Origin: Chloroflexota bacterium | GTDB lineage: Bacteria; Chloroflexota; Anaerolineae; UBA4142; SHND01 | Assembly: GCA_029778615.1 (NCBI GenBank) | Contig: JAKOPZ010000029.1 | Location: 1-64,000 of the forward strand | Reading direction: 5' to 3' | DNA: 64,000 nt | In this document: positions 4,267-46,266 of the stretch, piece after piece | Layout: every line of letters starts with the position of its first letter | How positions within the stretch are numbered: position 1 is the stretch's first letter | Made by a program: the position numbers and the translations under genes | The notes under the pieces: model-generated | What the model was told of the DNA's origin: nothing | Databases searched by the model: none | Seen by the model: the letters and a program-made list of their open reading frames with translations, nothing else

Positions 4267-6992
4267 AGTGCCCGAAAGATATTGCAGCGAAACGCGCGGC
4301 AGGAGTGACCGTTTTCGTTGTCAGCGTGTGTGTTTTACTTTTGAGTATCGCCTCATTCGGCGGCGAAAGTGTGTCGCGCACTCACGCCTCCGGTGAGGTG
4401 TGGGCAACACAACTCGCCGTCGGCAGCCAGCATTCCTGCGCCATCACCGGCACCGGCAGCGTCAAGTGTTGGGGCAAAAATAACTACGGACAACTGGGTG
4501 ACAACTCGACAACGAATCGCACCACGCCCGTTGACGTTTGTGCGGATGCGTCGTGTGCAACGTCATTGAATGGCATCACCGCTCTCACGGCAGGACTTGA
4601 TTTTACGTGTGCGTTGACCAACGCGGGGCGCGTCAAATGTTGGGGCAAGAATTCGTTTGGCGCATTGGGCAACAATACCCAGACGGAGCAACATACGCCG
4701 GTGGACGTTTGTGCGGATGCGGATTGCAATAGCGCCTTGAACGGCGTGACGGCGATTTCGGCGGGGGCAAACTTTACATGTGCGTTGATGTCGAGCGGCG
4801 GAGTCAAATGTTGGGGACACAATACGCGAGGGCAGTTGGGGGACAATACAAATACAACGCGCTTGACGCCGGTGGATGTGAGCGGCTTGTTCGGCGTGCA
4901 AAGTATTGCGGCAGGTTATGTGCATGTGTGCGCGGTGCAGTTCAGTTTGATGCAGTGTTGGGGCGGCAATAGTCAAGGCGAACTCGGCGATGGGACGACT
5001 ACAGACCACAATTTGCCGCAACCTGTTTGCGCGGATGCCGGTTGCACGGCGGGACTGAGCAACATTGTCGCTATCGAAGGCGGTGAAACGTACACCTGCG
5101 CGTTGACCTTTGGCGGGGGCGTCAAATGCTGGGGCAACAATGCCTTTGGACAATTGGGCGATGGGACGCAAACGGTCCGACTCACACCGGTTGATGTTTG
5201 CGCAGATAGTGCCTGCGCGACGCGCTTGACGAGCGGTGTCGCCCAAATTGGCGCCAAGTGGAAGCACACGTGCGCGGTGATGAACAGCGGCGGCGCGAAA
5301 TGTTGGGGACACAATCAAAATGGGAAATTGGGCGACGGGACGACGACGAATCGGTACATCCCGGTTGATGTAAGTAACTTGGCAAGTGGGGTTGGAGAAA
5401 TCGAGCCGGGACAACAGCATACCTGCGCGCGCATGAGCAAAGGCGCGGTGAAATGTTGGGGCGACAATGCGTATGGACAATTGGGCAATGGGACGACAAC
5501 AGACAGCCGCGCGCCTGTAAATGTATCCGGTTTTGCGAATGTTCCTACAACGCCCACACCAACGTCAGTTACACCACCACCCACTCCAATTCCTGCGGGC
5601 GCAATGCAAATTGACGCGGGCTATCTACACACCTGCGCGGTGACGACAAGCGGCGCAGCGTGGTGCTGGGGCAGAAACGAATCGGGACAACTGGGTGATG
5701 GAACAACAACGGACCGTTTGATACCCGTCACTGTGGATGGCTTGTCAAGCGGCATCGCTGCGATTTCCGCAGGGCGGACGCATACTTGCGCGCTGACCAC
5801 AGGCGGCGGGGTCAAGTGTTGGGGTCTCAATCGTTATGGCGCGTTAGGAGATGGCACAGCGACAGACCGCTTGACGCCGGTGAATGTGACTGGCTTGTCC
5901 AGCGGGATTGCTGCCATCTCTGCGGGATATAACCACACTTGCGCGCTGACGACGGGCGGTGGGGTCAAATGCTGGGGCTGGAATGAATTTGGGACACTTG
6001 GAGATGGTTCAACGACCGACCGCTTGACACCGGTGGATGTAGTTGGATTATCGAGTGGCATCGCGGCAATTTCGGCAGCCGGGAGACATACTTGCGCTTT
6101 GACAACAGGGGGCGGTATCAAATGCTGGGGCTCGAATGCCGATGGCGCTTTGGGGAATCCCACGATTGATTTGCAAAGCAGTGTACCGGTTGATGTGTGT
6201 TTAGACTCGGACTGCACTGCACACTTGACAAGCGGTGTCACATCACTTTCCGGAGATTCATTCCACACGTGTGCAGCGACCACGGGCAATGTGAAATGTT
6301 GGGGTCTCAATATCTCAGGTGAGATTGGCAATACGTGTTGGAAACTTTGTCGGTTTTTTCTCCCTGTAGATGTTCCCAACTCAGCCGGACTCTCGCCGGT
6401 CGGCGCGGGCTTTTTCCTCAGCGCGGCATTGACGCCGAGTGGGGGAGTAAAGTATTGGGGCAACTTTCATTTTACGCCGACGGATATCAGCAATTGGACG
6501 AGTGGCATTACTGTGTCTGCGGTGGGCGGCGGGCATATCTGCGCGCTCGCAACGAACGGAGCTGTGAGCTGTTTCGGAGACAATTACTATGGACAACTCG
6601 GGGATGGCAAGAGTGGCAATCAATGGGTTGACACTCCCGTACAAGTGGTTGGATTGAACGGAGGCAGCAGCCCGCCCACCCCGACCCCATCGCCCACGCC
6701 TGATTGCTCCGCTGCACCCGCGAAACCCGTACTCTCTGCTCCCGCGAACAACAGCAGCACAAGCAATCTTCACCCAACCTTGCGCTGGAACGCGGCGAAC
6801 TGCGCCGAGACGTACAAAGTGACCGTCAAAGATACGGCGACGGGAAATACAGTGGACAAGGCAACGGGTTTGACGAGACTGCGTTACCGCACCGACACCT
6901 TGACGGCGAACAAAACGTACAAATGGTTCGTACATGCGTGCCACACGCACGGCTGTACGAAATCGGCGGTGTGGACCTTCACCGAACAATAA
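4263..6992 (+). CDS. Secreted RCC1-repeat beta-propeller protein with C-terminal Fn3-like domain
   Basis: 909 residues. An N-terminal hydrophobic segment (about 15-32, VFVVSVCVLLLSIASF) serves as signal peptide or anchor. It is followed by at least 14 repeats of the pattern CALTTGGGVKCWGxN..GxLGDGTTTxRLTPVDV, the bacterial RCC1/BNR-type blade, in two blocks separated by a Thr/Pro linker (TPTPTSVTPPPTPIP). Cysteines recur at fixed places in each blade and may form disulfides outside the cell. After a second Pro/Thr linker, residues about 815-909 (PVLSAPANNSSTSN...RWNAANC...YKVTVKD) resemble a fibronectin type III-like domain. An extracellular binding role is likely; the ligand is unknown. The start overlaps the previous stop (ATGA). 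Confidence 0.88.
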   Translation: MKCPKDIAAKRAAGVTVFVVSVCVLLLSIASFGGESVSRTHASGEVWATQLAVGSQHSCAITGTGSVKCWGKNNYGQLGDNSTTNRTTPVDVCADASCATSLNGITALTAGLDFTCALTNAGRVKCWGKNSFGALGNNTQTEQHTPVDVCADADCNSALNGVTAISAGANFTCALMSSGGVKCWGHNTRGQLGDNTNTTRLTPVDVSGLFGVQSIAAGYVHVCAVQFSLMQCWGGNSQGELGDGTTTDHNLPQPVCADAGCTAGLSNIVAIEGGETYTCALTFGGGVKCWGNNAFGQLGDGTQTVRLTPVDVCADSACATRLTSGVAQIGAKWKHTCAVMNSGGAKCWGHNQNGKLGDGTTTNRYIPVDVSNLASGVGEIEPGQQHTCARMSKGAVKCWGDNAYGQLGNGTTTDSRAPVNVSGFANVPTTPTPTSVTPPPTPIPAGAMQIDAGYLHTCAVTTSGAAWCWGRNESGQLGDGTTTDRLIPVTVDGLSSGIAAISAGRTHTCALTTGGGVKCWGLNRYGALGDGTATDRLTPVNVTGLSSGIAAISAGYNHTCALTTGGGVKCWGWNEFGTLGDGSTTDRLTPVDVVGLSSGIAAISAAGRHTCALTTGGGIKCWGSNADGALGNPTIDLQSSVPVDVCLDSDCTAHLTSGVTSLSGDSFHTCAATTGNVKCWGLNISGEIGNTCWKLCRFFLPVDVPNSAGLSPVGAGFFLSAALTPSGGVKYWGNFHFTPTDISNWTSGITVSAVGGGHICALATNGAVSCFGDNYYGQLGDGKSGNQWVDTPVQVVGLNGGSSPPTPTPSPTPDCSAAPAKPVLSAPANNSSTSNLHPTLRWNAANCAETYKVTVKDTATGNTVDKATGLTRLRYRTDTLTANKTYKWFVHACHTHGCTKSAVWTFTEQ

Positions 6993-19674: not shown

Positions 19675-20268
19675 CTATTTGCCGCCCCGTTTTGGTTTCT
19701 GCTCTTTTTTGTCCCGGTCCAAAATTTCTTGCGCCACTTGCTGCATCGTCACGCGCCTTGAACGACTCGTGCGATGTATTTTGTTGAATGCTTGCTGTTC
19801 ACTCAAATTTTGCTGCTCCATCAAAACGCGTTTCGCATTTTCGACCACCTCGCGCGCGACCAAACTCTTTTGCAAGTCCTGCACTTGCTTTTGTACTTTT
19901 TGCCATTCTTTGAAACGCGTCACCGCGAGGTCGAGGGTCGCGTCCAATAAATCTTCTTTGACCGGTTTCACCAAATAACCAAACACGGACGCCTCGCGCG
20001 CTTCGTTCACTAATTCGCGCTGGCTGTACGCGGTGAGCATCACGACGGGCGTTGGGCGCTCTTGCATAATTTTGCGCGCGGCTTGAATGCCGTCCATCCC
20101 CGGCATTTTAATATCCATCAAAATCACTTCGGGCTTTTCCGTGCGCGTCATTTGAATTGCCGACGCGCCGTCCACCGCCGACGCGACAACCTTGTGCCCT
20201 TTGTCTTCCAGCATCGTTCGCAAACCCATTCGAATTACGGCTTCGTCATCTGCGATAAGTACGCGCAT
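19675..20268 (-). CDS. ANTAR-domain response regulator (AmiR/NasR/PdtaR type)
   Basis: 198 residues. Receiver domain 1-118 with acidic pocket DD7-8, phospho-acceptor Asp52 (LMDIKMPGMDG), Thr79 and Lys101. A coiled linker follows, then an ANTAR RNA-binding domain (about 128-185, AREVVENAKRVLMEQQNLSEQQAFNKIHR). ANTAR regulators bind paired hexaloop hairpins in mRNA leaders and prevent termination, often of nitrogen or ethanolamine genes. It stands next to the cognate kinase gene and on the strand of the ammonium/GOGAT cluster. The ribosome-binding site GGAG is 9 bases before the ATG. Confidence 0.93.
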   Translation of the reverse strand: MRVLIADDEAVIRMGLRTMLEDKGHKVVASAVDGASAIQMTRTEKPEVILMDIKMPGMDGIQAARKIMQERPTPVVMLTAYSQRELVNEAREASVFGYLVKPVKEDLLDATLDLAVTRFKEWQKVQKQVQDLQKSLVAREVVENAKRVLMEQQNLSEQQAFNKIHRTSRSRRVTMQQVAQEILDRDKKEQKPKRGGK

Positions 20269-20330: not shown

Positions 20331-20354
20331 GTGAACGTTACGGCGAACGTTCAC
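20331..20354. repeat. Family B palindrome, copy B1
   Basis: GTGAACGTT / AACGTTCAC with a 6-base loop. Its outer bases (GTAGTGAACG on the minus strand) supply the TAG stop codon of the histidine kinase. Confidence 0.75.
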
Positions 20355-22021
20355 TACGCATCACCGATTTTCATTTTCGGAATTTTCAACACTGCCACTG
20401 TCCCGCGTTTCTCGCGCCGATTCGTTCGCCGATTGCTTAGCTTGAATTCGCCGCGCAAATCGCGAATCAATTCTTGGACGATGCGCAGCCCCAATGAATC
20501 ATTCGGTTTGAAATTTTTCGGCAAACCTGCGCCGTCGTCTTGCACTTGAATTTCATATTGATTCTTGCGTTCGACGAGTGAAACGGTCACCGTCCCGCGC
20601 GAACGATTGTCGAAACCGTGTTCCAACGCGTTTTGAATCAACTCGTTCACCGCAATGGTGATGGTCGTCGCGGGCTGTGACGGCAAACGAATCTCGGCGC
20701 CCTGCACTTGAATCGAAATTTCTTTTTCAGGATGCACCATCGTCTGGTGCGCCATGAACGCCGCTTGTTGAATCAACTCGCGCACCCCAATCACGCGAAA
20801 CCCGTCTTGCGATAACGCTTCATGCACCGCCGCGATGCCCATGATGCGGTTGATGGTTTGCGTCAACAATTCACTCGCATTCAACTTGTTGGCGTCGCGC
20901 AATTGCATTCGCAAAAGCATCGCCACCGTCTGCAAATTGTTTTTGATGCGATGGTGCATTTCGCGCACCAGCATCGAATTCATCATCAAGTTCGCGTTTT
21001 CCAACGCGACGGCAGTTTGATTTGCCAACGTGGAGAACAATTCGATTTCGCTCGGCGTAAAATCATGTACGCGATTCAAATAACAATTGAACGCGCCAAT
21101 CACTTTGGCGCGCACGCTGACGGGCACCGAAAGGAACGAATGCAATCCTTCACGTTTCGCCAGTGTATGATTTTTGTACGACGGTTCACTTTGCAAATCG
21201 CGCACAATGACAGGTTCGCCGCGTTGAATCGCGCGTCCGGTCAAACTGGTCCCCACGTCAATGGGCGAAATCGCCGCGTGTTCGCGTTCCAGTCCGTACG
21301 TTGCGCGCAGCGCGAGCGCATCATTCTCTTCGTCAAACAGCAAGAGCGCGGTGCCTTTGGCGTTCATAATCTGCGCCGCCATTTCGCAAATGACCGCGAG
21401 CATGTCGTCGAGATAAATCGGTTCGGTGATGGTTTTGCTCACCTGCGCGAGCGTGGACAATTCATTGACTTGGCGCTGCAAACCGTCGAGCAATTCCGCG
21501 CGTTCGAGCGCACCCGCTGCAAGTTCGCCAATCAATTCGAGCAAATCAATTTCGGGGCGCGTCCAATGATGCAGCCGTTTCGTCTGTACATTCATCGCGC
21601 CGATTTTGCTGCCCTGACTAATCAACGGCACTGCCGCAAGGGATTTGAAATTTTCTTCTTCGGTCCCCGGAACGTACACGAATCGCGGGTCATTCACTGC
21701 ATCGCGCACCGCGATGGATTTTCCGCTTTCCAACGCCGCGCCCGTGATGCCTTTGCCCAACGCAAGTTTGCCGATGTTGAATGCTTTGGGTGACAAGCCG
21801 GTGCTGGCTTTCAACACCAACGCGTTTTGTTTTTTGTCCCAAAGATAAATCGAACACGAATCAAGCTGCATTACATCGGCGGTGGTTTCGGTAATCTTAT
21901 GGAGCGTCGTATCCAAATCAAACGCCGCACTCAACGCTTCGCCGATATTGTGCAGTGCTTGCAATTCGGCTCGCGGGTCGGAAATGCGGCGAGGTGTTTT
22001 GTGTTTGGATACGCGCGGCAT
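20354..22021 (-). CDS. GAF-GAF sensor histidine kinase (PdtaS-like)
   Basis: 555 residues, no membrane segment. Two GAF domains (about 25-175 and 190-335) precede a dimerisation/phosphotransfer helix with REMHHRIKNNLQTVA (HisKA_2/HWE-like, about 345) and an ATPase domain with N-box NELIQNALEHGF and G-boxes DDGAGLP, LGLRIVQELI. It is the expected partner of the ANTAR regulator downstream. GAF domains bind small molecules or cyclic nucleotides; the signal is unknown. It starts 1 base after the stop of the PycTM-like gene, so the two are co-transcribed. Confidence 0.92.
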   Translation of the reverse strand: MPRVSKHKTPRRISDPRAELQALHNIGEALSAAFDLDTTLHKITETTADVMQLDSCSIYLWDKKQNALVLKASTGLSPKAFNIGKLALGKGITGAALESGKSIAVRDAVNDPRFVYVPGTEEENFKSLAAVPLISQGSKIGAMNVQTKRLHHWTRPEIDLLELIGELAAGALERAELLDGLQRQVNELSTLAQVSKTITEPIYLDDMLAVICEMAAQIMNAKGTALLLFDEENDALALRATYGLEREHAAISPIDVGTSLTGRAIQRGEPVIVRDLQSEPSYKNHTLAKREGLHSFLSVPVSVRAKVIGAFNCYLNRVHDFTPSEIELFSTLANQTAVALENANLMMNSMLVREMHHRIKNNLQTVAMLLRMQLRDANKLNASELLTQTINRIMGIAAVHEALSQDGFRVIGVRELIQQAAFMAHQTMVHPEKEISIQVQGAEIRLPSQPATTITIAVNELIQNALEHGFDNRSRGTVTVSLVERKNQYEIQVQDDGAGLPKNFKPNDSLGLRIVQELIRDLRGEFKLSNRRTNRREKRGTVAVLKIPKMKIGDA

Positions 22022-24238: not shown

Positions 24239-24271
24239 TGTAGTCTCCAGTCTCCAATCTCCAGTCTCTAA
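24239..24271. repeat. Heptamer repeat site 5 (GACTGGA type, inverted), right arm of gltB-splitting element
   Basis: Reads TAGTCTC CAGTCTC CAATCTC CAGTCTC TAATTC on plus. On the minus strand its AATTAGAGA end supplies the TAG stop of gltB. Confidence 0.8.
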
Positions 24272-27200
24272 TTCACTACTGCTGTCGGCGCAAAGATATA
24301 TGGCGCAGGAATCGGCGCGATGATGTTTTGCTGGAATTGTTGTGCGCGTTGACGCGGTTGATATTGTAACAAATCAACGCGTCCCACAACTTCATCGAGC
24401 GTGCGCGCGCCGATGGAGGCGAGCCATTCGCGCGTTTCTTCGGCGACGAATAAATAGTACGCCATCACCCATTCTGCCACCTGCGGAAATTTTTTTCGTA
24501 ACTCTTGTTTCTGCGTTGCAATGCCAACGGGACACGTATTGAGATGACACGCGCGCGCCATGATGCAGCCGCTCGCAATCACCGCCGCCGTACCAAAGGA
24601 AAATTCTTCTGCGCCCAACAGCGCGCCGACGACAACATGGCGTCCCGTTTTCAAACCGCCGTCCACACGCAAGCGGACGCGTCCCCGCAGGTCGTTGGCT
24701 ACTAGGACCTGCTGGGTCTCTGCCAGCCCCAATTCCCACGCAATCCCCGCGTGTTTGATCGAGCTCAACGGAGACGCGCCCGTGCCGCCAGAATGTCCCG
24801 ACATGTGAATCACATCGGCGTACGCTTTGGCGACACCTGCGGCAATTGTTCCCACACCATTTTGCGCGACGAGTTTCACGGAAACTTTTGCGCGCGGATT
24901 GATGCGTTTCAAATCGTAAATCAATTGCGCCAAATCTTCAATCGAATAAATGTCGTGATGCGGGGGGGGGGAAATGAGTGTGATGCCCGGCTGCGCGTGG
25001 CGCACGGCGGCAATTTCCAAACTCACCTTTGCCCCGGGCAATTGTCCGCCTTCGCCCGGTTTGGAACCTTGCGCCATCTTGATTTGCAATTCATCCGCGC
25101 TCATCAAGTACGCGGGTGTCACGCCAAAGCGCGCGGACGCGACTTGTTTAATCGCGCTGTTGCGAATTGTGCCGTAACGCGAGGGATGTTCGCCGCCTTC
25201 GCCGCTATTCGCCAATGCACCCAACCGATTCATCGCTTCGCTTAACGTTTGATGCGCTTCGAGCGACAATGCACCATGCGACATTGCCGCGACGGAAAAA
25301 CGTTTCACCAAGACATCGGCGGGTTCCACTTCCGAAAGCGGAATCGGTTCGCGCGGAACGAATTGCAAAAAGTCCGCGAGGTCGGTGGCGGGGCGTTCGT
25401 TCACGAGCGACGCAAATTTCAAATACTTTTCGTACGCCTCGCGATAATTTCCATTCAATGCGCCGGGCGTGCGAACCGCGTCGTGCAGCGCATCAACGAT
25501 ATTCGGATTGAACGCGTGGTATTCGCCGCCTTTTTTGAATTTGAAATAACCGTAGTTATACAGACGACGATTTGTGTCGTCTGTATAACAGCGCGCGTGA
25601 TGATGCAAAACGGTTTCGGCAATTTCGCGCAAACCAATGCCGCCGACGGGCGACGCGGTTCCTGTAAAGTACGGCGCAATCACTGTTTCATTCAAACCGA
25701 TACATTCAAACAATTGCGCGCCGTGATACGCGTCGAGCGTCGCAATGCCCATCTTGGACATGATTTTCAAAATGCCTTTGTTCGACGCGGCGACAAAATT
25801 TTCTTGCGCGTGTGCGGCATCGAGCTGCACGTTGCGGCGAACATGACCGACATCATACAACGCGTGAATGGTCGCCAACGCGAGGTATGGATTAATCGCG
25901 TTCGCGCCATACCCAATCAAACACGCGAATTGATGTACATCGCGCGCATCGCCCGTTTCCGCGATGATGCTCGTCTGCCAGCGCAAACCAACGCGCAATA
26001 AATGATGATGCACCGCGCTCACCGCGAGGAGCATGGGAATCGGCGCGCGTGGTGGGGTAGCAACGGAACCGGGTTCCGTTGCTACCCCACCACTGACATT
26101 TCGGTCAGAAATTATCAAGATGGTTTTGCCGTCACGCGTTTGTTCTTCGGCAAGCGCGCACAATTTTTCTAGAGCGCGTTCGAGTTGGGTAGCAGCGGAA
26201 TGGGTAACAACGGAACCGGGTTCCGTTGTCACCCATTCCCACGTCGCATCGAGCGTGACGTGCGGAAATTCATCATCCAACGCGCGAATTTGCGCGAGCT
26301 GCGCGTCATTCAAAAATGGTGAGGCAAGTTCCAATAAATGCGCGTGCGTGGGCGACTCTTCAAGAATGTTGCCGCGTCCGCCGAGAAAAACGCGCGTAGA
26401 CATGACGAGTTCTTCGCGCAATGGGTCAATCGGCGGATTCGTCACTTCGGCAAAACGTTGACGGAAAAAGTGATACAGCGGGCGGTCAAATTCCGAAAAC
26501 ACCGCGTGCGGCGTATCGTCACCCATCGAGCCGACGGCTTCTTGTTTATTCTCTGCCATCGGTTTGAGAACGACGACAAGCTCTTCATCGGTGTAACCAA
26601 AGAGAGATTGAAGACTGGAGACTGGAGACTGGAGATTACCGTATTCTTGTTTCCCTGTTTCCTTGTCTCCCTCTTTGCCCAGCACTCGAATATACTCACT
26701 CACCCAGTGCGCGTAGGGGCGGCGCGAGGCATAGTGCAATTTAATTTCGTCGTTCTTCCACAATTTGTTGTACTGCAAATCCGCGACAACCATTTGTCCC
26801 GGACCGAGACGCCCTTTTTGCTTTACGCGTTCGGGTTCGATTTCGAGCGCGCCTGATTCGCTCGCGGCGATGACGAAACCATCGTTGGTGACGAGCCACG
26901 TCGCGGGACGCAAACCGTTTCTATCGAGCGTCATTCCTGCGACACGTCCATCGGAAAAACAAATCGCGGCGGGTCCGTCCCACGGTTCCATCAACGTCGC
27001 GTGATAGCGATAGAACGCTTTGATTTGCGGGTCGAGGTCGCGCACATTTTCCCATGCTTCGGGCATGAGCATCATCACCGCGTGCGGCAGTTCGCGTCCG
27101 CCGAGCGCGACGAGTTCGAGCGCGTTGTCCAAAATGCCCGAATCGGAAGAAGAAAGGTCGAGCAAGGGCTGTAGTGAACGCTCGCCGTAGCGTTCATCCG

Positions 27201-28158
27201 CATCGGCGAGAGGGAACGAAGCAGCGGGGAACGAAGCAGCGGGGAACGAAGCAGCGGGGAACGAAGCAGCGGGGAACGAAGCAGCGTTCGTTCCGTACTC
27301 ATCGCGGAATATGGGAGAGTCAAAATATGGTGCGCGCGCGTTCATCCATGCGATATTGCCAGAGAGCGTATTGATTTCGCCATTGTGGCACAAGCGGCGA
27401 AACGGCTGCGCGAGTTCCCACGATGGAAACGTGTTGGTGCTGTAACGTTGATGCACGAGCGCGAGCGCGGTTTCGTACATTGGGTCTTGCAAATCAAAAT
27501 AAAATTTGCCGAGCATCGGCGAGATAAACAGACCTTTGTAAACAATCGTGCGCGATGAAAGCGACGCGGCATACAAGCGCGGAATCTTTTCTTGGATGGC
27601 TTTGCGTTCGATTTCTTTGCGCGCGAAATACAACGCCCGTTCAAAGCCGTCGCCGCTGCCAACATATTTGCCGCGTGAAACAATCGCTTGGGTGATGTAC
27701 GGACGCGTTTTGAACGCGTGCTCGCCCAACGCTTCAAGATTCACCGGCACTTCGCGCCACATCAACAATTGCAAATTGCGCGAGGCGAAAACATTTTCGA
27801 TAATTTGTTTCGCTTGCGCACGCGGCTCTTTGTCGCGCGGAATGAAAAACATGCCCACCGCGAGGTCGCCTTCGTGGGGGGGGGTGATTTTGTTGTTGGT
27901 GAGTTCGCGCGCGAAAAAATTATACGGCAGCTGTGTGAGGATGCCGGAACCGTCGCCCGTTTTGCCGTCCGCCGCGACCGCGCCGCGATGCGAAAGCCGC
28001 GCAATCGTACTCAATGCGTCTTGCAGCAATTTGTGCGAGGCGCGCGCGTGCAAGTCGGCAAGAAAACCGGTGCCGCACGCATCGCGTTCAAAATAGGGGT
28101 CGGTTAAAAATGTTTCGTGATGTCCTCGCTGGGGAGAACAATCGTCTTGGTTCGACAT
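24268..28158 (-). CDS. gltB: Glutamate synthase large subunit, N-terminal through FMN/3Fe-4S domains (GXGXG domain detached)
   Basis: 1296 residues from ATG 28158 (GGAG 8 bases upstream; an in-frame ATG at 28188 is less well placed). Makes glutamate from glutamine and 2-oxoglutarate. Class II amidotransferase nucleophile Cys28 (RDACGTGFLADL, normally exposed by propeptide cleavage), central domain, then FMN-binding synthase domain (GEGGEHPSRYG, KPGEGGQLPGAKV, GHSGGTGASP) and the 3Fe-4S cysteines ACHLNTCPVG. Four segments look foreign and repeat-derived: five AASFP units (about 291-316), NLQSPVSSLQS with flanks (about 490-519), WVTTEPGSVVTH (about 640-657) and GGVATEPGSVATP (about 689-702). 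C runs of ten (24962-24971) and nine (27876-27884) occur in the frame. No gltD is in the window. Confidence 0.93.
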   Translation of the reverse strand: MSNQDDCSPQRGHHETFLTDPYFERDACGTGFLADLHARASHKLLQDALSTIARLSHRGAVAADGKTGDGSGILTQLPYNFFARELTNNKITPPHEGDLAVGMFFIPRDKEPRAQAKQIIENVFASRNLQLLMWREVPVNLEALGEHAFKTRPYITQAIVSRGKYVGSGDGFERALYFARKEIERKAIQEKIPRLYAASLSSRTIVYKGLFISPMLGKFYFDLQDPMYETALALVHQRYSTNTFPSWELAQPFRRLCHNGEINTLSGNIAWMNARAPYFDSPIFRDEYGTNAASFPAASFPAASFPAASFPAASFPLADADERYGERSLQPLLDLSSSDSGILDNALELVALGGRELPHAVMMLMPEAWENVRDLDPQIKAFYRYHATLMEPWDGPAAICFSDGRVAGMTLDRNGLRPATWLVTNDGFVIAASESGALEIEPERVKQKGRLGPGQMVVADLQYNKLWKNDEIKLHYASRRPYAHWVSEYIRVLGKEGDKETGKQEYGNLQSPVSSLQSLFGYTDEELVVVLKPMAENKQEAVGSMGDDTPHAVFSEFDRPLYHFFRQRFAEVTNPPIDPLREELVMSTRVFLGGRGNILEESPTHAHLLELASPFLNDAQLAQIRALDDEFPHVTLDATWEWVTTEPGSVVTHSAATQLERALEKLCALAEEQTRDGKTILIISDRNVSGGVATEPGSVATPPRAPIPMLLAVSAVHHHLLRVGLRWQTSIIAETGDARDVHQFACLIGYGANAINPYLALATIHALYDVGHVRRNVQLDAAHAQENFVAASNKGILKIMSKMGIATLDAYHGAQLFECIGLNETVIAPYFTGTASPVGGIGLREIAETVLHHHARCYTDDTNRRLYNYGYFKFKKGGEYHAFNPNIVDALHDAVRTPGALNGNYREAYEKYLKFASLVNERPATDLADFLQFVPREPIPLSEVEPADVLVKRFSVAAMSHGALSLEAHQTLSEAMNRLGALANSGEGGEHPSRYGTIRNSAIKQVASARFGVTPAYLMSADELQIKMAQGSKPGEGGQLPGAKVSLEIAAVRHAQPGITLISPPPHHDIYSIEDLAQLIYDLKRINPRAKVSVKLVAQNGVGTIAAGVAKAYADVIHMSGHSGGTGASPLSSIKHAGIAWELGLAETQQVLVANDLRGRVRLRVDGGLKTGRHVVVGALLGAEEFSFGTAAVIASGCIMARACHLNTCPVGIATQKQELRKKFPQVAEWVMAYYLFVAEETREWLASIGARTLDEVVGRVDLLQYQPRQRAQQFQQNIIAPIPAPYIFAPTAVVN
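26051..26092. repeat. Family A palindrome copy A2, inside gltB reading frame
   Basis: Left half GGTGGGGTAGCAACGGAACC and right half GGTTCCGTTGCTACCCCACC meet in a 42-bp palindrome. In frame it encodes GGVATEPGSVATPP. Confidence 0.9.
26187..26239. repeat. Family A palindrome copy A3 with partial unit, inside gltB reading frame
   Basis: A partial GGGTAGCAGCGGAA (26187-26200) joins a full palindrome GAATGGGTAACAACGGAACC / GGTTCCGTTGTCACCCATTC. It encodes WVTTEPGSVVTHSAAT. Confidence 0.9.
26605..26673. repeat. Heptamer repeat site 6 (GACTGGA type plus TTTCCCTG octamers), inside gltB reading frame
   Basis: Reads GACTGGA GACTGGA, then a third GACTGGA and GATTACC, followed by TTTCCCTG TTTCCTTG TCTCCCTC. 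Translated on the minus strand it gives EGDKETGKQEYGNLQSPVSS, an insert before FGYTDEEL. Confidence 0.85.
27174..27196. repeat. Family B palindrome copy B2, inside gltB reading frame
   Basis: GTGAACGCT / AGCGTTCAT around CGCCGT. It encodes ADERYGERSLQ next to the AASFP repeats. Confidence 0.8.
27212..27294. repeat. Five perfect 15-bp tandem repeats inside gltB
   Basis: Unit GGGAACGAAGCAGCG repeated five times (27212-27286), ending in the palindrome GGAACGAA-GCAGCG-TTCGTTCC. It encodes AASFP five times. Copy number should vary between strains because the units are identical. Confidence 0.92.
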
Positions 28159-28268
28159 CGCAGTTGCTCCAAAAGGGCGCGTGAACATATGGTCGGCGAG
28201 AGGACGGCGATGTCGGTTCTCATCAGGGGGACCGAAAAAATTTTGGCGTCATTGCCAAAGCGGAATTC

Positions 28269-28298
28269 ATTGTAGGCGCGTTCGCGGGAGAATTACAA
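28269..28298 (-). promoter_or_regulatory. Probable promoter of gltB
   Basis: On minus: TTGTAA (28298-28293), 18-bp spacer, TACAAT (28274-28269), about 110 bases before the gltB ATG. No terminator-like hairpin is seen between it and gltB. Confidence 0.6.
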
Positions 28299-28343
28299 CG
28301 CGCAGTTTGCACAATGTTTGAGGAAAGCGTTTGTGCAAAAAAT

Positions 28344-28559
28344 TTACGCGCCGCGATGCACAAACAGGTTCGGCAAGCGCAAGGATTCGTCATTCGCGTT
28401 GTGCGCCATGCCTTGTACATAGCGGCGCGCACCTTCGATGAAAATGACCTTGTTGCAAATCACGCAATTTTTTTCGTCGAGCGCATACGCGAACGCGGTT
28501 TCTTTATTAAACACGTTCGCCACTTCCCGCAGATGTTTTTTACAGAGACAGGGTTGCAT
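28344..28559 (-). CDS. Small Cys-rich protein (CxC and CxxC, possibly metal-binding)
   Basis: 71 residues, MQPCLCKKHLREV... with a CLC pair at 4-6 and NCVICNKV at about 31-36, which could bind zinc with the nearby His. The ribosome-binding site AAGGAG is 8 bases before the ATG. It lies between the second ammonium transporter gene and gltB, so a role in the nitrogen cluster is possible. No family recognised with confidence. Confidence 0.6.
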   Translation of the reverse strand: MQPCLCKKHLREVANVFNKETAFAYALDEKNCVICNKVIFIEGARRYVQGMAHNANDESLRLPNLFVHRGA

Positions 28560-28577
28560 ATCGAAACTCCTTATATG

Positions 28578-28653: not shown

Positions 28654-30234
28654 TTATTCCGCAGGCATCGCCGCGCCTTGCGGAATGGGACGCGGACCTT
28701 CATGAACGGGATGGTCGGTCCAGATGTAACCGGGTGCGCCCATTTCGGGCAAGTCCAAACCGGCGAGTTCGTCGGCGCGCGCGGACCGCAGCAGCTTGAA
28801 TTGATGCAGCACGCGGAAAAATACATACGTCAAGCCGCCGACGGCGACAATAATTGCGCCAACCTCAAAAAGTTGCGCAAAGATTTGCGTGGTGCCCCCG
28901 TACAACAATCCGGTAACGGGTGTTGCGACACCATTCCATGCAGCGGTATCGGAATTGCCCATCGCGAAAATGCCCACCGCGAGAACGCCCCAAATACCAT
29001 TCGCAAAATGCACTGGCACCGCGCCAACGGGGTCATCAATTTTGGCTTTCTCGAGCGCGAACGAGACGAGACATACAATCACGCCCGCGACAATGCCAAT
29101 GACGACAGCAGCCCACGAATCCACGAACGCGCAGGGCGCCGTAATCGCGACCAACCCGGCGAGAATGCCATTCACGGACATTCCCGGGTCCGGTTTCTTG
29201 CTGGGACCAACAAGCCACATGAACGTCATCGCCGCGACCCCGCCGGCTGCGCCCGCCATCAAGGTATTCACGGCAGCGAGGACGGCGAGATTGCGAAAGG
29301 CGCCGGTGAAACCGAGCGCGGAACCCGGATTGAACCCGAACCATCCAAAAAAGAGAATGATGGTCCCCAGCACGCCCATCGGGATATTGTGACCCGGAAT
29401 CGTATTCGCGGTGCCATCCTTGTTAAAGCGTCCAATACGCGGACCGATGACAATCGCGCCGACGAGCGCAATCGTACCGCCAATCATGTGCACGACACCC
29501 GAACCCGCAAAGTCCACCGCACCGTTGCCAAAGCCCATTGTGCGTCCAAGATTGGCGAGCCACCCGCCGCCCCAGACCCAACCGCCGACGAGCGGATAGA
29601 TGAACATGCTGACCCACAAGCCCATCAACACAAAGCCGATGAACTTGAAACGTTCCGCCATCGAACCGGTGGGAATCGTCGCGGCGGTGTCCATGAACAC
29701 CATCTGGAACAGGAAAAAAGTAAAGACGCCGAAATTTGCGGTGAGTCCGGCGAGCATGAATCCGCTCAAACCGAGTATGCCGTGCTGACCGCCGAGAATC
29801 AATTCATTGCCCAACAATGAATTGCCCGCCGCGTCTGCCCACGTGCCAAGCGTGACCGGCGAAAAATTCCACGCGTCCAAATTGCCGATTGCGGGATATG
29901 TCGCATTGATGCCGCCGAATTGAAAGGCGAAACCGGTAAAGTAATAACCGAGCGCGCCGATGCAAAACACCATCATGTTCATCATCATGGTGTGCGAAAC
30001 ATTTTTCGCGCGGGTGAAACCCGTCTCGACGAGCGCAAAACCTGCCTGCATGAAAAAGACGAGAAAACCCGCAAGCAAGACCCACAGTGCATTGAGACTC
30101 ACGGTTGCATCCGCAACCTGTTCTGCGGGGTCAGGTCCTTGCGCGAAAATGGATTTGGTCGTCAACACTACGAGGATGACGGCGAGCAGCACCGCAAAGA
30201 TGCGTGTGCCTTTGATTAAATTGTTAAATTTCAT
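28654..30234 (-). CDS. amt: Ammonium transporter (Amt/MEP/Rh family), copy 1
   Basis: 526 residues from ATG 30234, preceded by GGAGG. Signal-peptide-like N-terminus (to about residue 30, SIFAQG), then 11 membrane helices. The pore histidine pair is visible in GVVHMIGGTIALVGA and PVHFANGIWGVLA. The cytoplasmic C-terminus is long. It imports ammonium/ammonia and is normally gated by a PII protein; no glnK is in the window. A 45-base 5' sequence, including a hairpin that pairs with the ribosome-binding site, is shared with copy 2. Confidence 0.95.
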   Translation of the reverse strand: MKFNNLIKGTRIFAVLLAVILVVLTTKSIFAQGPDPAEQVADATVSLNALWVLLAGFLVFFMQAGFALVETGFTRAKNVSHTMMMNMMVFCIGALGYYFTGFAFQFGGINATYPAIGNLDAWNFSPVTLGTWADAAGNSLLGNELILGGQHGILGLSGFMLAGLTANFGVFTFFLFQMVFMDTAATIPTGSMAERFKFIGFVLMGLWVSMFIYPLVGGWVWGGGWLANLGRTMGFGNGAVDFAGSGVVHMIGGTIALVGAIVIGPRIGRFNKDGTANTIPGHNIPMGVLGTIILFFGWFGFNPGSALGFTGAFRNLAVLAAVNTLMAGAAGGVAAMTFMWLVGPSKKPDPGMSVNGILAGLVAITAPCAFVDSWAAVVIGIVAGVIVCLVSFALEKAKIDDPVGAVPVHFANGIWGVLAVGIFAMGNSDTAAWNGVATPVTGLLYGGTTQIFAQLFEVGAIIVAVGGLTYVFFRVLHQFKLLRSARADELAGLDLPEMGAPGYIWTDHPVHEGPRPIPQGAAMPAE

Positions 30235-30239
30235 TGTCT

Positions 30240-30271
30240 GCCTCCAGAGAATTTTTGAATGTCTTGGAGGC
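30240..30271 (-). promoter_or_regulatory. Ribosome-binding-site-sequestering hairpin before amt copy 1
   Basis: On minus GCCTCC (30271-30266) can pair with GGAGGC (30245-30240), which is the ribosome-binding site of the downstream ATG. The loop is AAGACATTCAAAAATTCTCT. Nearly identical to 32064-32095. Confidence 0.65.
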
Positions 30272-30445
30272 GTCAGGGCCCGATAGGCGACAATACGTAG
30301 CCGAGTGTTCAATGCTTGGCTCAACGGAATGAGCTGTTTCTCTCTTGCGATTGTCGTCGCGCGTCGCTACCCCGCGACAAGGGTGAGGACATTGTGGTCG
30401 GCAGCAGGTGAAAATTTCTGACGACACACTTAATCCAACCTGTGT

Positions 30446-30671: not shown

Positions 30672-32057
30672 TTATGCCGTCACGACATCGCCACTGTATG
30701 CTTCCATACCGTGTTCGGTCGTATCGAGCCCCTTGAGTTCTTCTTGTTCGGATGCGCGCAAGCCCATCGTTTTCTTGAGAATATAGAAAATGACGAACCC
30801 TGCGCCGACGGACCAAACAATCACCGTCACGCTGCTGATGACTTGGGCAATCAGTTGTCCAAAATCGCCATACAGCGCGCCCGAAACGCCGCCATACGTT
30901 CCATCGGCAAAAATGCCGAGCGCCAAGAGACCAAAGACGCCGCCCGCGCCATGCACCGAAATCGCGCCAACCGGGTCATCAATCTTGAGTTTGTTTTCGA
31001 CAAAGCTCAAGGAAGCGAGCATGATGAACGCGGCGAGAATTCCGATGACCACCGCTGCCCACGGCGCAACATACGCGCACGGAGCGGTGATGCCGACGAG
31101 TCCCGCCAACGCGCCGTTGCACGCCAGCGTAATGTCGCCTTTGCCCGTTTTCGCCAGCGAATAATACATGGCGACGACCGCGCCCGCGACACCGGCGAGG
31201 AACGTATTGACCGCGATGACGGATATTCGCAGGTCGGTTGCCGCGAGCGTCGAGCCGGGATTGAACCCGAACCAGCCAAAGAACAGCACCATCGTCCCAA
31301 TCACTACAAAACTCACGTTGTGACCGGGAATCACGCGCGGCTTGCCCGTTTTATCGAACTTGCCGATACGCGGACCGACGAGATACGCGCCTGCGAGAGC
31401 GACGAAACCGCCGACGGCATGAACCACACCGCTGCCTGCGAAATCACGCGCGCCCGAACCAAACGGCAGAGTCCAGAGCCAACCACCGCCCCAAACCCAA
31501 TGACCGTAAATCGGATACACGATGGCGGAAATCAAAAAACTGTACGCCATGTACGACGTTGTCTTGGTGCGTTCTGCCATCGCACCGGAAACAATCGTCG
31601 CGGCAGTTGCGGCAAACACCATTTGGAAAAACCACAAGAGCATGGTGTTGACATCGTTCGCGTCACCCGACAGGAAAAAGCCCGACATGCCGATAAACGG
31701 ATTGCCGTCTGCCAATCCCGAAGCGAGCGCCGAACCGCCAAACATGAGCGCAAAGCCGAACGCCCAAAACGCGAGTCCGCCGATACAAAAGTCCATAAAA
31801 TTTTTGGACATGACCGCGACGGCGTTTTTGGAACGCGTCAAGCCGGTTTCCACCAGCGCGAATCCTGCCTGCATAAAGAACACGAGGAACGCTGTAACCA
31901 ACACCCAAACAAAATTGACCGGCGAGTTTGGATTGGCTTCCAGAGTCGCCGTGCCAACGGGGTCGGGTCCTTGCGCGAATGCGGTCTTGACGGTGACGGA
32001 CACCGCCAGAACGACGAGCAGGAGAGTTATAACTTGTAAGGTACGAGCTAATTTCAT
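30672..32057 (-). CDS. amt: Ammonium transporter (Amt/MEP/Rh family), copy 2
   Basis: 461 residues. Signal-peptide-like N-terminus ending near TAFAQG, then 11 helices. Pore histidines are in GVVHAVGGFVALAGAYL and SVHGAGGVFGLLALG. It has a shorter C-terminus than copy 1 (ends TTEHGMEAYSGDVVTA). The ribosome-binding site GGAGG is 7 bases before the ATG and lies inside the conserved hairpin. First gene of the amt-sORF-amt run, driven by the perfect promoter at 32437-32464 through a long leader. Confidence 0.95.
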   Translation of the reverse strand: MKLARTLQVITLLLVVLAVSVTVKTAFAQGPDPVGTATLEANPNSPVNFVWVLVTAFLVFFMQAGFALVETGLTRSKNAVAVMSKNFMDFCIGGLAFWAFGFALMFGGSALASGLADGNPFIGMSGFFLSGDANDVNTMLLWFFQMVFAATAATIVSGAMAERTKTTSYMAYSFLISAIVYPIYGHWVWGGGWLWTLPFGSGARDFAGSGVVHAVGGFVALAGAYLVGPRIGKFDKTGKPRVIPGHNVSFVVIGTMVLFFGWFGFNPGSTLAATDLRISVIAVNTFLAGVAGAVVAMYYSLAKTGKGDITLACNGALAGLVGITAPCAYVAPWAAVVIGILAAFIMLASLSFVENKLKIDDPVGAISVHGAGGVFGLLALGIFADGTYGGVSGALYGDFGQLIAQVISSVTVIVWSVGAGFVIFYILKKTMGLRASEQEELKGLDTTEHGMEAYSGDVVTA

Positions 32058-32063
32058 TGGATT

Positions 32064-32095
32064 GCCTCCGAGAATTTTTTGAATGTCTTGGAGGC
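32064..32095 (-). promoter_or_regulatory. Ribosome-binding-site-sequestering hairpin before amt copy 2
   Basis: GCCTCC (32095-32090) pairs with the ribosome-binding GGAGGC (32069-32064). It is embedded in a conserved block beginning GGGCCCTGACGCCTCCAAGA that is shared with copy 1, although the sequence further upstream differs. Confidence 0.65.
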
Positions 32096-32127
32096 GTCAG
32101 GGCCCCTGCAACTCGAGTGCAGTGTTT

Positions 32128-32143
32128 GTCGCATCTATGCGAC
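32128..32143 (-). promoter_or_regulatory. Hexaloop hairpin matching the ANTAR target loop pattern
   Basis: On minus GTCGC-ATAGAT-GCGAC: a 5-bp stem with a six-base loop having A at 1 and G at 4, the known ANTAR-binding loop pattern. The required second hexaloop hairpin was not found; the next hairpin (CTGCA/TGCAG) has seven loop bases. Confidence 0.3.
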
Positions 32144-32305: not shown

Positions 32306-32430
32306 AAAAAAAGCCCTTGGACATATTTTCGCTGCGCGCGAACTCATGTCCAAGGGCTGCTGGGCCCCAATAAAAATTGGGCGGCGTCAATGGCGCCTGT
32401 TTTGCATATTCGATTTATTGAACAATTACG
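32306..32430 (-). ncRNA. Structured RNA with own promoter and terminator, copy 1 (upstream of amt)
   Basis: The 51-base core (32347-32397) contains hairpin GGCG/CGCC, hairpin CCCAAT-TTTT-ATTGGG and GGGCCCAGCAGCCC. It runs into a terminator stem AGCCCTTGGACAT / ATGTCCAAGGGCT followed by seven T (32306-32358). It differs from copy 2 at 3 of 51 core bases. It could be an attenuating riboswitch for amt or an independent small RNA of about 125 nt. Confidence 0.7.
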
Positions 32431-32436
32431 GTTGCC

Positions 32437-32464
32437 ATTATAGGCACTGCGCCAAGATTGTCAA
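32437..32464 (-). promoter_or_regulatory. Consensus sigma-70 promoter for structured RNA copy 1 / amt
   Basis: On minus TTGACA (32464-32459), 16-bp spacer, TATAAT (32442-32437); both hexamers are perfect. Confidence 0.9.
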
Positions 32465-32483
32465 AACGCGCCGCGCGCGAAAA

Positions 32484-33179
32484 TTAAAGCGCCTGCGCGT
32501 CACAATTTGTATACACGCCGTCCAAATGCTGGCAATCATTTAACGATGCGAGACGAAACCCGTAACGTTTAGCAACGGAACCCGGTTCCGTTGCTATCCC
32601 TTCCGTTGCTACCCCTTCCGTTGCTACCCTTTCGAGAACGCTCACCGACGCGTTATCAAAACGCCAACGCCAAAAAAATTCCAGACCCATCAACAAGGTT
32701 TGCAAAATAATCACGCGCAGCACCGCGTCATGTGTGACAATTAAAATGTTTCCCTCGTGATGTTCCGCCAGCAAGTCTTGCAAAAAATTTTGCACGCGCA
32801 GCGAAACATCTTGCAACGATTCACCGTCGGGCATCTTGACGCGATGCGGCTGCGTGCGCCACGCGCGATATTCGTCCGCGTACTGCTCTTGAATCACCGC
32901 CGCCGGATTGCCTTCCCACGCGCCGTGATGAATCTCCGCGAGCCGCGCATCCAAACGCAGTGGCATGTTTTTCAACTGCGCCGTGGGTTTCGCCGTATCC
33001 TGCGCGCGTTTCAACGGACTCGCGTAAATTGCTTCCAATTCGCGCGCGGCAAATTTTTCTGCCACGCGTTCCGCTTGCAATTCGCCCAACGCGCTCAATG
33101 GAACATCCTGCTGTCCCGTGTAAAGATGTTTTACATTCCACGCGCTTTCGCCGTGACGTACCAAAAATAATCGCAACAT
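32484..33179 (-). CDS. Histidine phosphatase / phosphoglycerate mutase-like protein
   Basis: 231 residues from ATG 33179, which starts MLRLFLVRHGESAWN directly at the RHG phospho-histidine motif. The second catalytic His is in IVTHDAVLRV and the acidic partner near HHGAWEG. Relatives include alpha-ribazole phosphatase, broad-specificity phosphatases and PspA-type phosphoserine phosphatases; the adjacent serA makes the last attractive, but this is inference. Residues about 182-203 (VATEGVATEGIATEPGSVAK) come from a family A repeat inserted in frame near the C-terminus. Confidence 0.88.
   Translation of the reverse strand: MLRLFLVRHGESAWNVKHLYTGQQDVPLSALGELQAERVAEKFAARELEAIYASPLKRAQDTAKPTAQLKNMPLRLDARLAEIHHGAWEGNPAAVIQEQYADEYRAWRTQPHRVKMPDGESLQDVSLRVQNFLQDLLAEHHEGNILIVTHDAVLRVIILQTLLMGLEFFWRWRFDNASVSVLERVATEGVATEGIATEPGSVAKRYGFRLASLNDCQHLDGVYTNCDAQAL
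32571..32634. repeat. Family A palindrome copy A4 with two extra half-units, inside the phosphatase frame
   Basis: AGCAACGGAACCCGGTTCCG continues TTGCTATCCC, followed by two more TTCCGTTGCTACCC half-units. Confidence 0.88.
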
Positions 33180-33186
33180 GCGCAAA

Positions 33187-33254
33187 GGACGGAAAATGGA
33201 AGACGGAAGACGGATATGCTGTTGCATTCGTCATTCGTCATTCGTCGTCCGTCA
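33187..33254. repeat. Heptamer repeat site 8 (GGAAGAC and TCGTCAT types)
   Basis: GGAAGAC GGAAGAC near the phosphatase start and TCGTCAT TCGTCAT TCGTCGT next to serA. On minus the latter supplies the serA TGA stop. Confidence 0.7.
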
Positions 33255-34829
33255 CAAATCCAAAACTTTACTCCACTGAATATCCAGCTCTTTATAAATC
33301 GTCGCCATCACATCACTTGGCACGGGGTCATCGAGCGTGAGAACCATAATCGCTTCGCCGCGCGGACCGTCGCGCGCAACCTGCATCGAAGCAATGTTCA
33401 CGTCCGCCGCGCCGAGCAGTGTGCCAACTTTGCCAATCATGCCCGGACGGTCACGATGCCGCGTGAGCATCACGTAACCGCTCGGCACAAAATCTACCCA
33501 ATTGCCGTCGAGTTGAACAATGTGCGGCTCGTCATGCAGCAGCGTTCCCGACACGCGCCGCTCGCCGACAATCGTCAGCATGTTTTCATAGCGCGCGGCT
33601 TGACGCGTTTTGCGTTCCGAAATGTCGAGTCCGTGCGTTTGCGCGAGCATCGCCGCGTTCACCAAATTCACGCGCGTTTCCACAATCGGTTCGAGCAGCC
33701 CTTTGATAATCGCAGCCGTGAGAACGCCCGTATCTTCTGCCGCAATTTTTCCTTCGTACTCGACCTGAATTTTGCCGAGCGGTCCGCCGACCCATTTCGT
33801 ATAAAAACGTCCGAGCCGTTCCGCCAAATCCATGTACGGGTGCAAAACTTGGGCGAGCGCGGGCGAAACCATCGGCGCGTTCACGGCAAATTTCGCGGGG
33901 CGTCCTTGCAGCACTGCCAAAACCTCTTCGGCAATTTCCAATGACACGCGCGTTGCCGCTTCCGCCGTGCTTCCGCCAATGTGCGGGGTGAGCACGACGC
34001 GCGGATGTTTTAACAAGCGTTCGTTTTTCGTCGGCTCGTGTTCAAAGACATCGAGCGCCGCGCCCGCGAGTTGTCCCGACTCCAACGCGTCGAGCAAAGC
34101 ATTTTCGTCGAGCAATGCGCCGCGCGCCGCATTCACCAAACGCGCGCCTTTTTTGAATTTTGCAAATTCGTCCGCGCCCAATAATTTTTTTGTTTCTTTG
34201 GTCACGGGCGCGTGAAGGGAAACAAAATCGCTCGTCGCCAACACGTCGTCGAACGAAACCATTTTCACTTGCATCTGCGCCGCGCGTTCGGGCGAAACAT
34301 ACGGGTCAAACGCGACCACTTCCATTCCCAAACCTACCGCGCGCCGCGCGACTTCACTGCCCACGCGTCCGAGACCGACAAGTCCCAAACGCTTGCCCAC
34401 AAGTTCGACGCCGGAAAATTGTTCGCGTTTCCATTCGCCGCGCCGCATACTCGCGTCCGCTTGCGGAATGTTGCGCGCGAGTGCCCAGAGAATCGCGACC
34501 GCGTGTTCCGCCGCCGCGACGATGTTGGTGGTCGGCGCATTGACGACGGTGATGCCGCGTTGTGTGGCTGCCGCGACATCTATATTGTCCACACCCACGC
34601 CCGCGCGTCCGACGACAATTAAATTTTTTCCGCACTCCAAGAGTGCCTCATTCACCTGCGTCGCGCTGCGAACAATCAACGCATGATAATTGGGCAATAT
34701 CTTTATCAATTCATCAACGGGCAATTTCAAACAAATATCTACGTTGGCATGTTGCTGTAATAGTTCGAGCCCTTCTTTGCCGAGTGGTTCGGCGACCAAG
34801 ACCTTTTGATTCACGTCACGGTGAGGCAT
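33252..34829 (-). CDS. serA: D-3-phosphoglycerate dehydrogenase
   Basis: 525 residues, the usual length for the long (type I) enzyme. First step of serine synthesis: 3-phosphoglycerate to phosphohydroxypyruvate with NAD. ATG 34829 starts at the conserved KVLVAEPLG; upstream extension is unlikely. NAD-binding GLGRVGSEVA, catalytic Arg in NAARGALLDE, Glu in FEHEPT and His in TPHIGGSTAEA. Then an allosteric substrate-binding domain and a C-terminal ACT domain (LTRHRDRPGMIGKVGTLLG) for serine feedback. A structured RNA with its own promoter lies upstream. Confidence 0.96.
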   Translation of the reverse strand: MPHRDVNQKVLVAEPLGKEGLELLQQHANVDICLKLPVDELIKILPNYHALIVRSATQVNEALLECGKNLIVVGRAGVGVDNIDVAAATQRGITVVNAPTTNIVAAAEHAVAILWALARNIPQADASMRRGEWKREQFSGVELVGKRLGLVGLGRVGSEVARRAVGLGMEVVAFDPYVSPERAAQMQVKMVSFDDVLATSDFVSLHAPVTKETKKLLGADEFAKFKKGARLVNAARGALLDENALLDALESGQLAGAALDVFEHEPTKNERLLKHPRVVLTPHIGGSTAEAATRVSLEIAEEVLAVLQGRPAKFAVNAPMVSPALAQVLHPYMDLAERLGRFYTKWVGGPLGKIQVEYEGKIAAEDTGVLTAAIIKGLLEPIVETRVNLVNAAMLAQTHGLDISERKTRQAARYENMLTIVGERRVSGTLLHDEPHIVQLDGNWVDFVPSGYVMLTRHRDRPGMIGKVGTLLGAADVNIASMQVARDGPRGEAIMVLTLDDPVPSDVMATIYKELDIQWSKVLDL

Positions 34830-34914
34830 TTCGATTTCCGGTCCTTTTTGCGTTGAGGACAAGTTGCTGATTTTTTGATTTGACCTTACGCCATTGGAAT
34901 GAGCCAATCAGATA

Positions 34915-35030
34915 CAAAAAGCCCTTGGGCAATTTGCATCGCGCAAACGTGAACACGAAAATTGTCCAAGGGCTGCTGAGCCCCAATAAAAATTGGGCGG
35001 CGACTATGGCGCCTGATTGCTATGGAATTG
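34915..35030 (-). ncRNA. Structured RNA with own promoter and terminator, copy 2 (upstream of serA)
   Basis: Core 34963-35013 with hairpins GGCG/CGCC and CCCAAT-TTTT-ATTGGG. The terminator stem AGCCCTTGGaCAAT / ATTGcCCAAGGGCT is followed by five T (34915-34973). The T-run ends 85 bases before the serA ATG. Same promoter geometry and 48 of 51 core bases identical to copy 1. Confidence 0.7.
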
Positions 35031-35036
35031 GCGGTT

Positions 35037-35064
35037 ATTATAAAAGAACTGAATGCGTTGTCAA
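35037..35064 (-). promoter_or_regulatory. Consensus sigma-70 promoter for structured RNA copy 2 / serA
   Basis: On minus TTGACA (35064-35059), 16-bp spacer, TATAAT (35042-35037). The preceding GCGCGTT is shared with copy 1. Confidence 0.9.
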
Positions 35065-46230: not shown

Positions 46231-46266
46231 GGTAGGAACGGAACCGGGTTCCGTTCCTACCCAAAC
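46226..46266. repeat. Family A palindrome copy A5 (intergenic)
   Basis: Perfect arms GTTTGGGTAGGAACGGAACC / GGTTCCGTTCCTACCCAAAC. It ends 2 bases before the stop of the EamA gene. Confidence 0.9.

Follow-up and report, generated by a model that had tools for sequence, protein, structure and literature searches.

The window analyzed here (64 kb of DNA) carries on its minus strand serA, a histidine phosphatase gene, the ammonium transporter genes amt2 and amt1, gltB, and genes for a sensor kinase and a REC-ANTAR response regulator (Table 1). The serA open reading frame is counted from its first possible start, and the real start is probably the ATG near 34830. Between amt1 and gltB, at about 28270-28560 (minus strand), lies a gene for a 71-residue protein with CxC/CxxC motifs that is kept in G001, G003 and G004; an ANTAR-like leader stands ahead of this gene in G001 and G004. 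The gltB product contains a tandem AASFPAASFP that looks like an in-frame expansion. A short dispersed repeat, TTCCGTTGCTACC, matches the window 10 times where 0.09 matches would be expected; it occurs at 26056-26215 (in gltB), 32586-32628 (in the histidine phosphatase gene), 17721 and 46231-46261, and some copies fall within coding frames and introduce repeated residues (VATEG, for instance) into the protein.

Two units, each composed of a promoter, a conserved core and a terminator, are found on the minus strand, one ahead of amt2 and the other ahead of serA. Read 5' to 3', each consists of TTGACA-16-TATAAT, a hairpin (P1), a 12-nt linker, another hairpin (P2) and a strong terminator, with amt2 or serA downstream. 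Of the 51 bases of the core (32347-32397 and 34963-35013), 48 are identical in the two units. Such duplicated units had been reported in the initial annotation, and their coordinates, promoters and core identity were all reproduced. Both have strong hairpins and U-runs, with fold z values of -5.5 and -3.7 against shuffled sequences, and in the window core P1, the linker hairpin and P2 adjoin one another, leaving no unpaired base in between. In both units P1 has the form 6+6+6 and P2 the form 4+6+4, that is the dual hexaloop of ANTAR targets, and the linker falls within the range of 2-25 nt described for such targets (PMC8164766). As had also been claimed, the terminator stem begins in the conserved core: in both units this stem opens with GCCC, the 3' arm of P2. 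P2 and the terminator are therefore mutually exclusive, which, like the anatomy of the units, is directly established.

The window was scanned mechanically for dual G4-hexaloops in which a terminator begins inside P2 (G4 being a G at loop position 4), and exactly these two places were retrieved in the 64 kb, against a mean of 0.05 in shuffled windows; the rules were fixed after the motif was known, and the scan is still a fairer check than the G4 counts given below. Searching the DNA of the same genome gave no further copies of the unit. Rfam gave no match in the window at the gathering score, in agreement with the earlier failure to match the core to a known riboswitch, and at E values up to 10 there were only chance-level matches, of which just trpB touches the terminator (E 3.1; 24 bits, the family's gathering score being 59).

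Table 1 Genes and leader elements of the nitrogen gene cluster in the window.
Feature	Position	Strand	Remark
REC-ANTAR response regulator	19675..20268	-	Pfam; predicted hexaloop binder
GAF-GAF-HisKA_2-HATPase sensor kinase	20354..22021	-	Pfam
gltB	24268..28188	-	glutamate synthase large subunit
amt1	28654..30234	-	ammonium transporter (PF00909); start set at ATG after GGAGGC, about 30234
amt1 Shine-Dalgarno and ATG	30232..30247	-	GGAGGC
amt1 P2'/anti-Shine-Dalgarno	30266..30282	-	CGGGCCCTGACGCCTCC
amt1 P1'	30363..30378	-	GTCGC[GGGGTA]GCGAC
amt2	30672..32057	-	ammonium transporter (PF00909)
amt2 Shine-Dalgarno and ATG	32055..32071	-	GGAGGC
amt2 P2'	32090..32106	-	GGGGC[CCTGAC]GCCTC(C); GCCTCC doubles as anti-Shine-Dalgarno
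amt2 P1'	32128..32143	-	GTCGC[ATAGAT]GCGAC
amt2 leader unit	32306-32464	-	precedes amt start 32057
amt2-leader intrinsic terminator	32306..32357	-	GCCCTTGGACA...TGTCCAAGGGC-U7
amt2-leader P2 antiterminator	32354..32367	-	GGGC[CCAGCA]GCCC; hexaloop G4; 3' arm = terminator 5' arm
amt2-leader linker	32368..32379	-	CAATTTTTATTG; small hairpin by itself; insert absent in G002
amt2-leader P1	32380..32397	-	GGCGCC[ATTGAC]GCCGCC; hexaloop A1 G4; one C.C mismatch
amt2-leader promoter	32437..32464	-	TTGACA-N16-TATAAT; sequence match; geometry shared with genus relatives
Histidine phosphatase gene	32484..33227	-	PF00300; between serA and amt2 leader
serA	33252..34907	-	phosphoglycerate dehydrogenase (PF02826, PF00389, PGDH_inter, ACT)
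serA leader unit	34913-35064	-	precedes serA
serA-leader intrinsic terminator	34916..34973	-	
serA-leader P2 antiterminator	34970..34983	-	GGGC[TCAGCA]GCCC; hexaloop G4
serA-leader linker	34984..34995	-	CAATTTTTATTG
serA-leader P1	34996..35013	-	GGCGCC[ATAGTC]GCCGCC; hexaloop A1 G4
serA-leader promoter	35037..35064	-	TTGACA-N16-TATAAT; sequence match; geometry shared with genus relatives

In relatives, BLASTN detected full copies only within the same genus, ahead of serA or amt. A first covariance model (R1) was built from six copies on the two hairpins proposed in the initial annotation, including an AT-rich one, and matched the genus, G002 (before serA) and, weakly, another family of the order. 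The AT-rich hairpin was ruled out as the functional second hairpin because G002 lacks it; it is a linker insert, and we consequently adopted the reading in which the functional second hairpin is P2, GGGC[..G..]GCCC, overlapping the terminator. The earlier proposal of two hairpins in the core was thus right as to the strong hairpins and wrong as to the second one; P2, the regulator genes and the translational elements before both amt genes described below had been missed. In these relatives two hairpins with loops of six bases are readily recognized, as in L049 before glnA (GAGTGC[CGTGAC]GCACTC and TGGC[CCAGAA]GCCC), and the P1 C.C mismatch of the window genus recurs in G019, from the order's other family. 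The orthologous serA leader of G004 has a classical P2, GGGC[ATTGAA]GCCC.

A second model, made from five copies devoid of the linker insert, was run on 249 genomes of the class and led to matches in 34 of them, strong in the order's two families and present in a few other families. Clear elements are followed by nitrogen assimilation genes, namely serA, amt, glnA, LysE-glnA, gltB (including gltB genes of 1,438-1,529 aa in three f16 family genomes) and those for amino-acid transporters; these names were derived from translated sequences, and the serA cluster was also recognized by tblastn with the window proteins. The overlap between P2 and terminator seen in the window recurs in those relatives that are clearly of the terminator type. 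Several model matches are weak and have no clear P1, and such matches were left out of the P1 comparison; L095, L096, L101 and L115 (weak, with no clear P1 or chance-like) were not counted as support, and from L102 only the P2 hairpin was used. Scanning the genome contigs with P1 strings was too unspecific and returned mostly random GC-rich matches. Locus L091 carries two tandem ANTAR-like elements (5712-5789 and 5823-5910, minus strand) ahead of one glnA. Matches to the T-box leader and to 6S RNA occur in relatives' loci as well (L091 1924-2233 and 8133-8310, both minus strand; L105 872-1049).

The covariance search through relatives suggested by the initial annotation thus provided further copies, and it also provided covariation. 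Across the compared loci P1 keeps its 6+6+6 form; among 26 distinct sequences 89.7% of the cells are paired and five of the six pairs change on both sides. P1 has a covariation value of 0.741, compared with 0.168 after shuffling; in slid versions the value does not exceed 0.221 and pairing drops to 19-55%. Conservation and P1 covariation are directly observed. P2 is 90.3% paired, with small variation and weak covariation (3 cells), its variation being partly fixed because the terminator constrains the arm as well. All P1 (26/26) and P2 (31/31) hexaloops compared have G4, a count that is biased since some sequences came in through a pattern containing G4, and for which the register was set by eye with G4 in mind. 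At loop position 1, C, G and A occur 9, 8 and 9 times in P1 (A in 9/26), and C, T and A 23, 5 and 3 times in P2 (A in 3/31). The A at position 1 (A1) that serves as a criterion for ANTAR targets is found in both P1 loops of the window, the P2 loops having C and U; in actinobacterial targets A1 is merely the majority letter (PMC8164766). Because A1 was looked for in each loop and is lacking in most P2 loops, we rank the leaders as a variant of ANTAR-target RNA, which, judging from sequence, would work like that kind of RNA and not as a riboswitch.

The REC-ANTAR and kinase genes lie 12-15 kb from the leaders in the same gene cluster (Pfam E-values of 5.8e-16 for REC-ANTAR and 4.6e-17 for GAF-HisKA_2). 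This linkage is directly observed: the regulator-kinase pair is present in the gltB cluster, on the element-bearing contig, in all six genus genomes. Solved relatives of the window REC-ANTAR protein are 1s8n ('putative antiterminator') and EutV (6wsh/6ww6). Compared with EutV, the window protein keeps the phosphorylation site D54 and the G4-coordinating residues R142, K149 and E160, and the genus proteins carry the changes Y164F, R168H, M172R, N173S/A and R177T (N173S in the window); the roles of these residues are those described for EutV, in which M172 is essential for RNA binding (PMC8934654). The two other ANTAR proteins of the window genome carry M172 and Q172 and belong to other types. 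An ANTAR protein is present in 20/20 genomes of the order and in 169/249 of the class, so that co-occurrence within the order is uninformative; the genomes with element matches at E <= 1e-4 are listed with an ANTAR protein, which is weak as support given their relatedness. A simple link between R172 and C at loop position 1 fails, the R172 protein of family f2 being a GAF-ANTAR protein beside an iron-permease-like gene. In L120, L121 and L125, from the order's second family, a GAF-ANTAR gene with R at EutV position 172 adjoins an FTR1 iron permease-like gene.

Both amt genes of the window are directly preceded by another pair of hairpins. The layout GTCGC[NNNGNN]GCGAC (P1'), spacer, P2-like hairpin (P2'), GGAGG(C) and ATG is shared by amt2, amt1 and the amt genes of G001, G003 and G005, and the P2-like hairpin has a loop NNNGAN and a stem reaching GCCTCC. 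When the amt2 RNA was folded, the full RNA paired GCCUCC with GGAGGC and a shorter transcript formed P2'; the fold z values of the translational elements are modest (-1.2 to -2.5). Position 4 of P1' is G in 5/5 sequences, P1' being outside the search pattern, which imposed the G4 of P2'. The same switch design appears to act on translation at both amt genes, sequestering or freeing the Shine-Dalgarno sequence.

Taken together, these observations make it highly probable that the two units are 5' leaders under ANTAR-type transcription antitermination, opened by the cluster-encoded REC-ANTAR protein, their predicted binder. RNA polymerase would initiate at the strong promoter and, by default, the nascent RNA would form the terminator and transcription would stop ahead of amt or serA. 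Once activated by the local kinase, REC-ANTAR would bind the G4 hexaloops of P1 and P2. Bound P2, GGGC[NNNGNN]GCCC, would then persist and, since its 3' arm is the lower terminator stem, the terminator could not form and the genes would be read. At the second dual hexaloop, ahead of each amt start, the P2 design would capture the anti-Shine-Dalgarno GCCUCC and free GGAGGC; as both types of element are carried by the amt2 mRNA, amt2 would be controlled at transcription and at translation. We infer protein binding and the direction of the switch by analogy with EutV (PMC3369931, PMC8934654). The GAF kinase probably responds to nitrogen status as the triggering signal.

The initial annotation had proposed either a new attenuating riboswitch or leader class or a duplicated small RNA. 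The cis-acting attenuating leader before nitrogen and amino-acid genes stands and is conserved in relatives; the new riboswitch class and the small RNA give way to the anatomy of an ANTAR dual-hexaloop antiterminator, with an ANTAR regulator and a kinase in the cluster. A small-molecule riboswitch, in which the core would be an aptamer for a nitrogen or amino-acid metabolite governing the terminator, is very unlikely. The conserved core, the terminator overlap and the metabolic genes suit it, and a new class would be in keeping with the absence of Rfam matches. However, apart from the hexaloops and short stems, the leaders conserve no unpaired core from which a pocket could be built, the stems change freely, the linker varies in length and sequence, and a protein binder encoded in the cluster accounts for the presence of two similar G4 hexaloops. 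We regard as still less likely a duplicated small RNA whose terminated transcript has a role in trans, such as that of a decoy for the ANTAR protein like EutX/Rli55: a strong promoter and a strong terminator would indeed yield a short RNA, with EutX as precedent (PMC8934654), but the order promoter, element, gene directly before orthologous nitrogen genes points to a role in cis, and a strong copy standing alone was not detected anywhere else in the six genomes of the genus. Least likely is a plain terminator next to neutral sequence duplicated by recombination between neighbouring leaders. Conversion is conceivable for the two window copies, which are 2.6 kb apart and very similar, but in other genera, copies that have diverged retain both G4 and a paired P1, the stem having undergone many compensatory changes.

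ANTAR-type antitermination, the reading that we prefer, has close counterparts. As in EutV/EutW and the eutP-type antiterminators of Enterococcus faecalis (PMC3369931, PMC8934654), there are two hexaloop hairpins with G4, the P2 3' arm lies in an intrinsic terminator, and REC-ANTAR and sensor kinase genes are near the target genes. In contrast to that system, P2 position 1 is not A, the 12-nt linker contains a hairpin, the targets are ammonium, serine and glutamate genes, and the window regulator carries the substitutions listed above. Published ANTAR targets are of the same design and favour nitrogen genes, including those for ammonium transporters and glutamate and glutamine synthases, and both the terminator-overlapping P2 and nitrogen-gene targets are already established (PMC3369931). 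Like the predicted nitrogen ANTAR regulons of Desulfotomaculum and Pelobacter (PMC3369931), this one repeats its elements ahead of several nitrogen genes, among them those for ammonium transporters and glutamate synthase; it differs from them by serA as a target and by a relaxed loop position 1. The elements before the amt starts resemble the translational ANTAR targets of actinobacteria (PMC8164766) in having two stem-loops that overlap or control the ribosome binding site and in their relaxed loop letters. Binding is thought to hide the ribosome site there, whereas here P2' would take the anti-Shine-Dalgarno and free the site, and here the translational element lies downstream of a transcriptional one on the same mRNA. 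Chloroflexi are not mentioned in the text of PMC3369931 (no match to 'chlorofle'), and no report of ANTAR targets in Chloroflexota was found in the literature searched, which is not proof of absence.

Beyond this, we tentatively put forward, as a plausible possibility that we stop short of favouring, a separate ANTAR subfamily whose loop code has changed, with G4 retained, position 1 unconstrained or a pyrimidine, and the protein altered at loop-contacting residues (M172R, R168H and R177T), in which one regulator would control amt2 twice on one mRNA, by antitermination and then by Shine-Dalgarno release. Such double control of amt would be a compact design. The natural set, with A1 lost, G4 invariant and the regulator changed at other loop contacts, would test directly how ANTAR proteins select their RNA, because G4 is the sole base-specific contact in the EutV structure. 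If true, the finding would extend ANTAR targets to loops without A1 and would give this Chloroflexota lineage, which belongs to a group with little genetics, a concrete nitrogen-control circuit.
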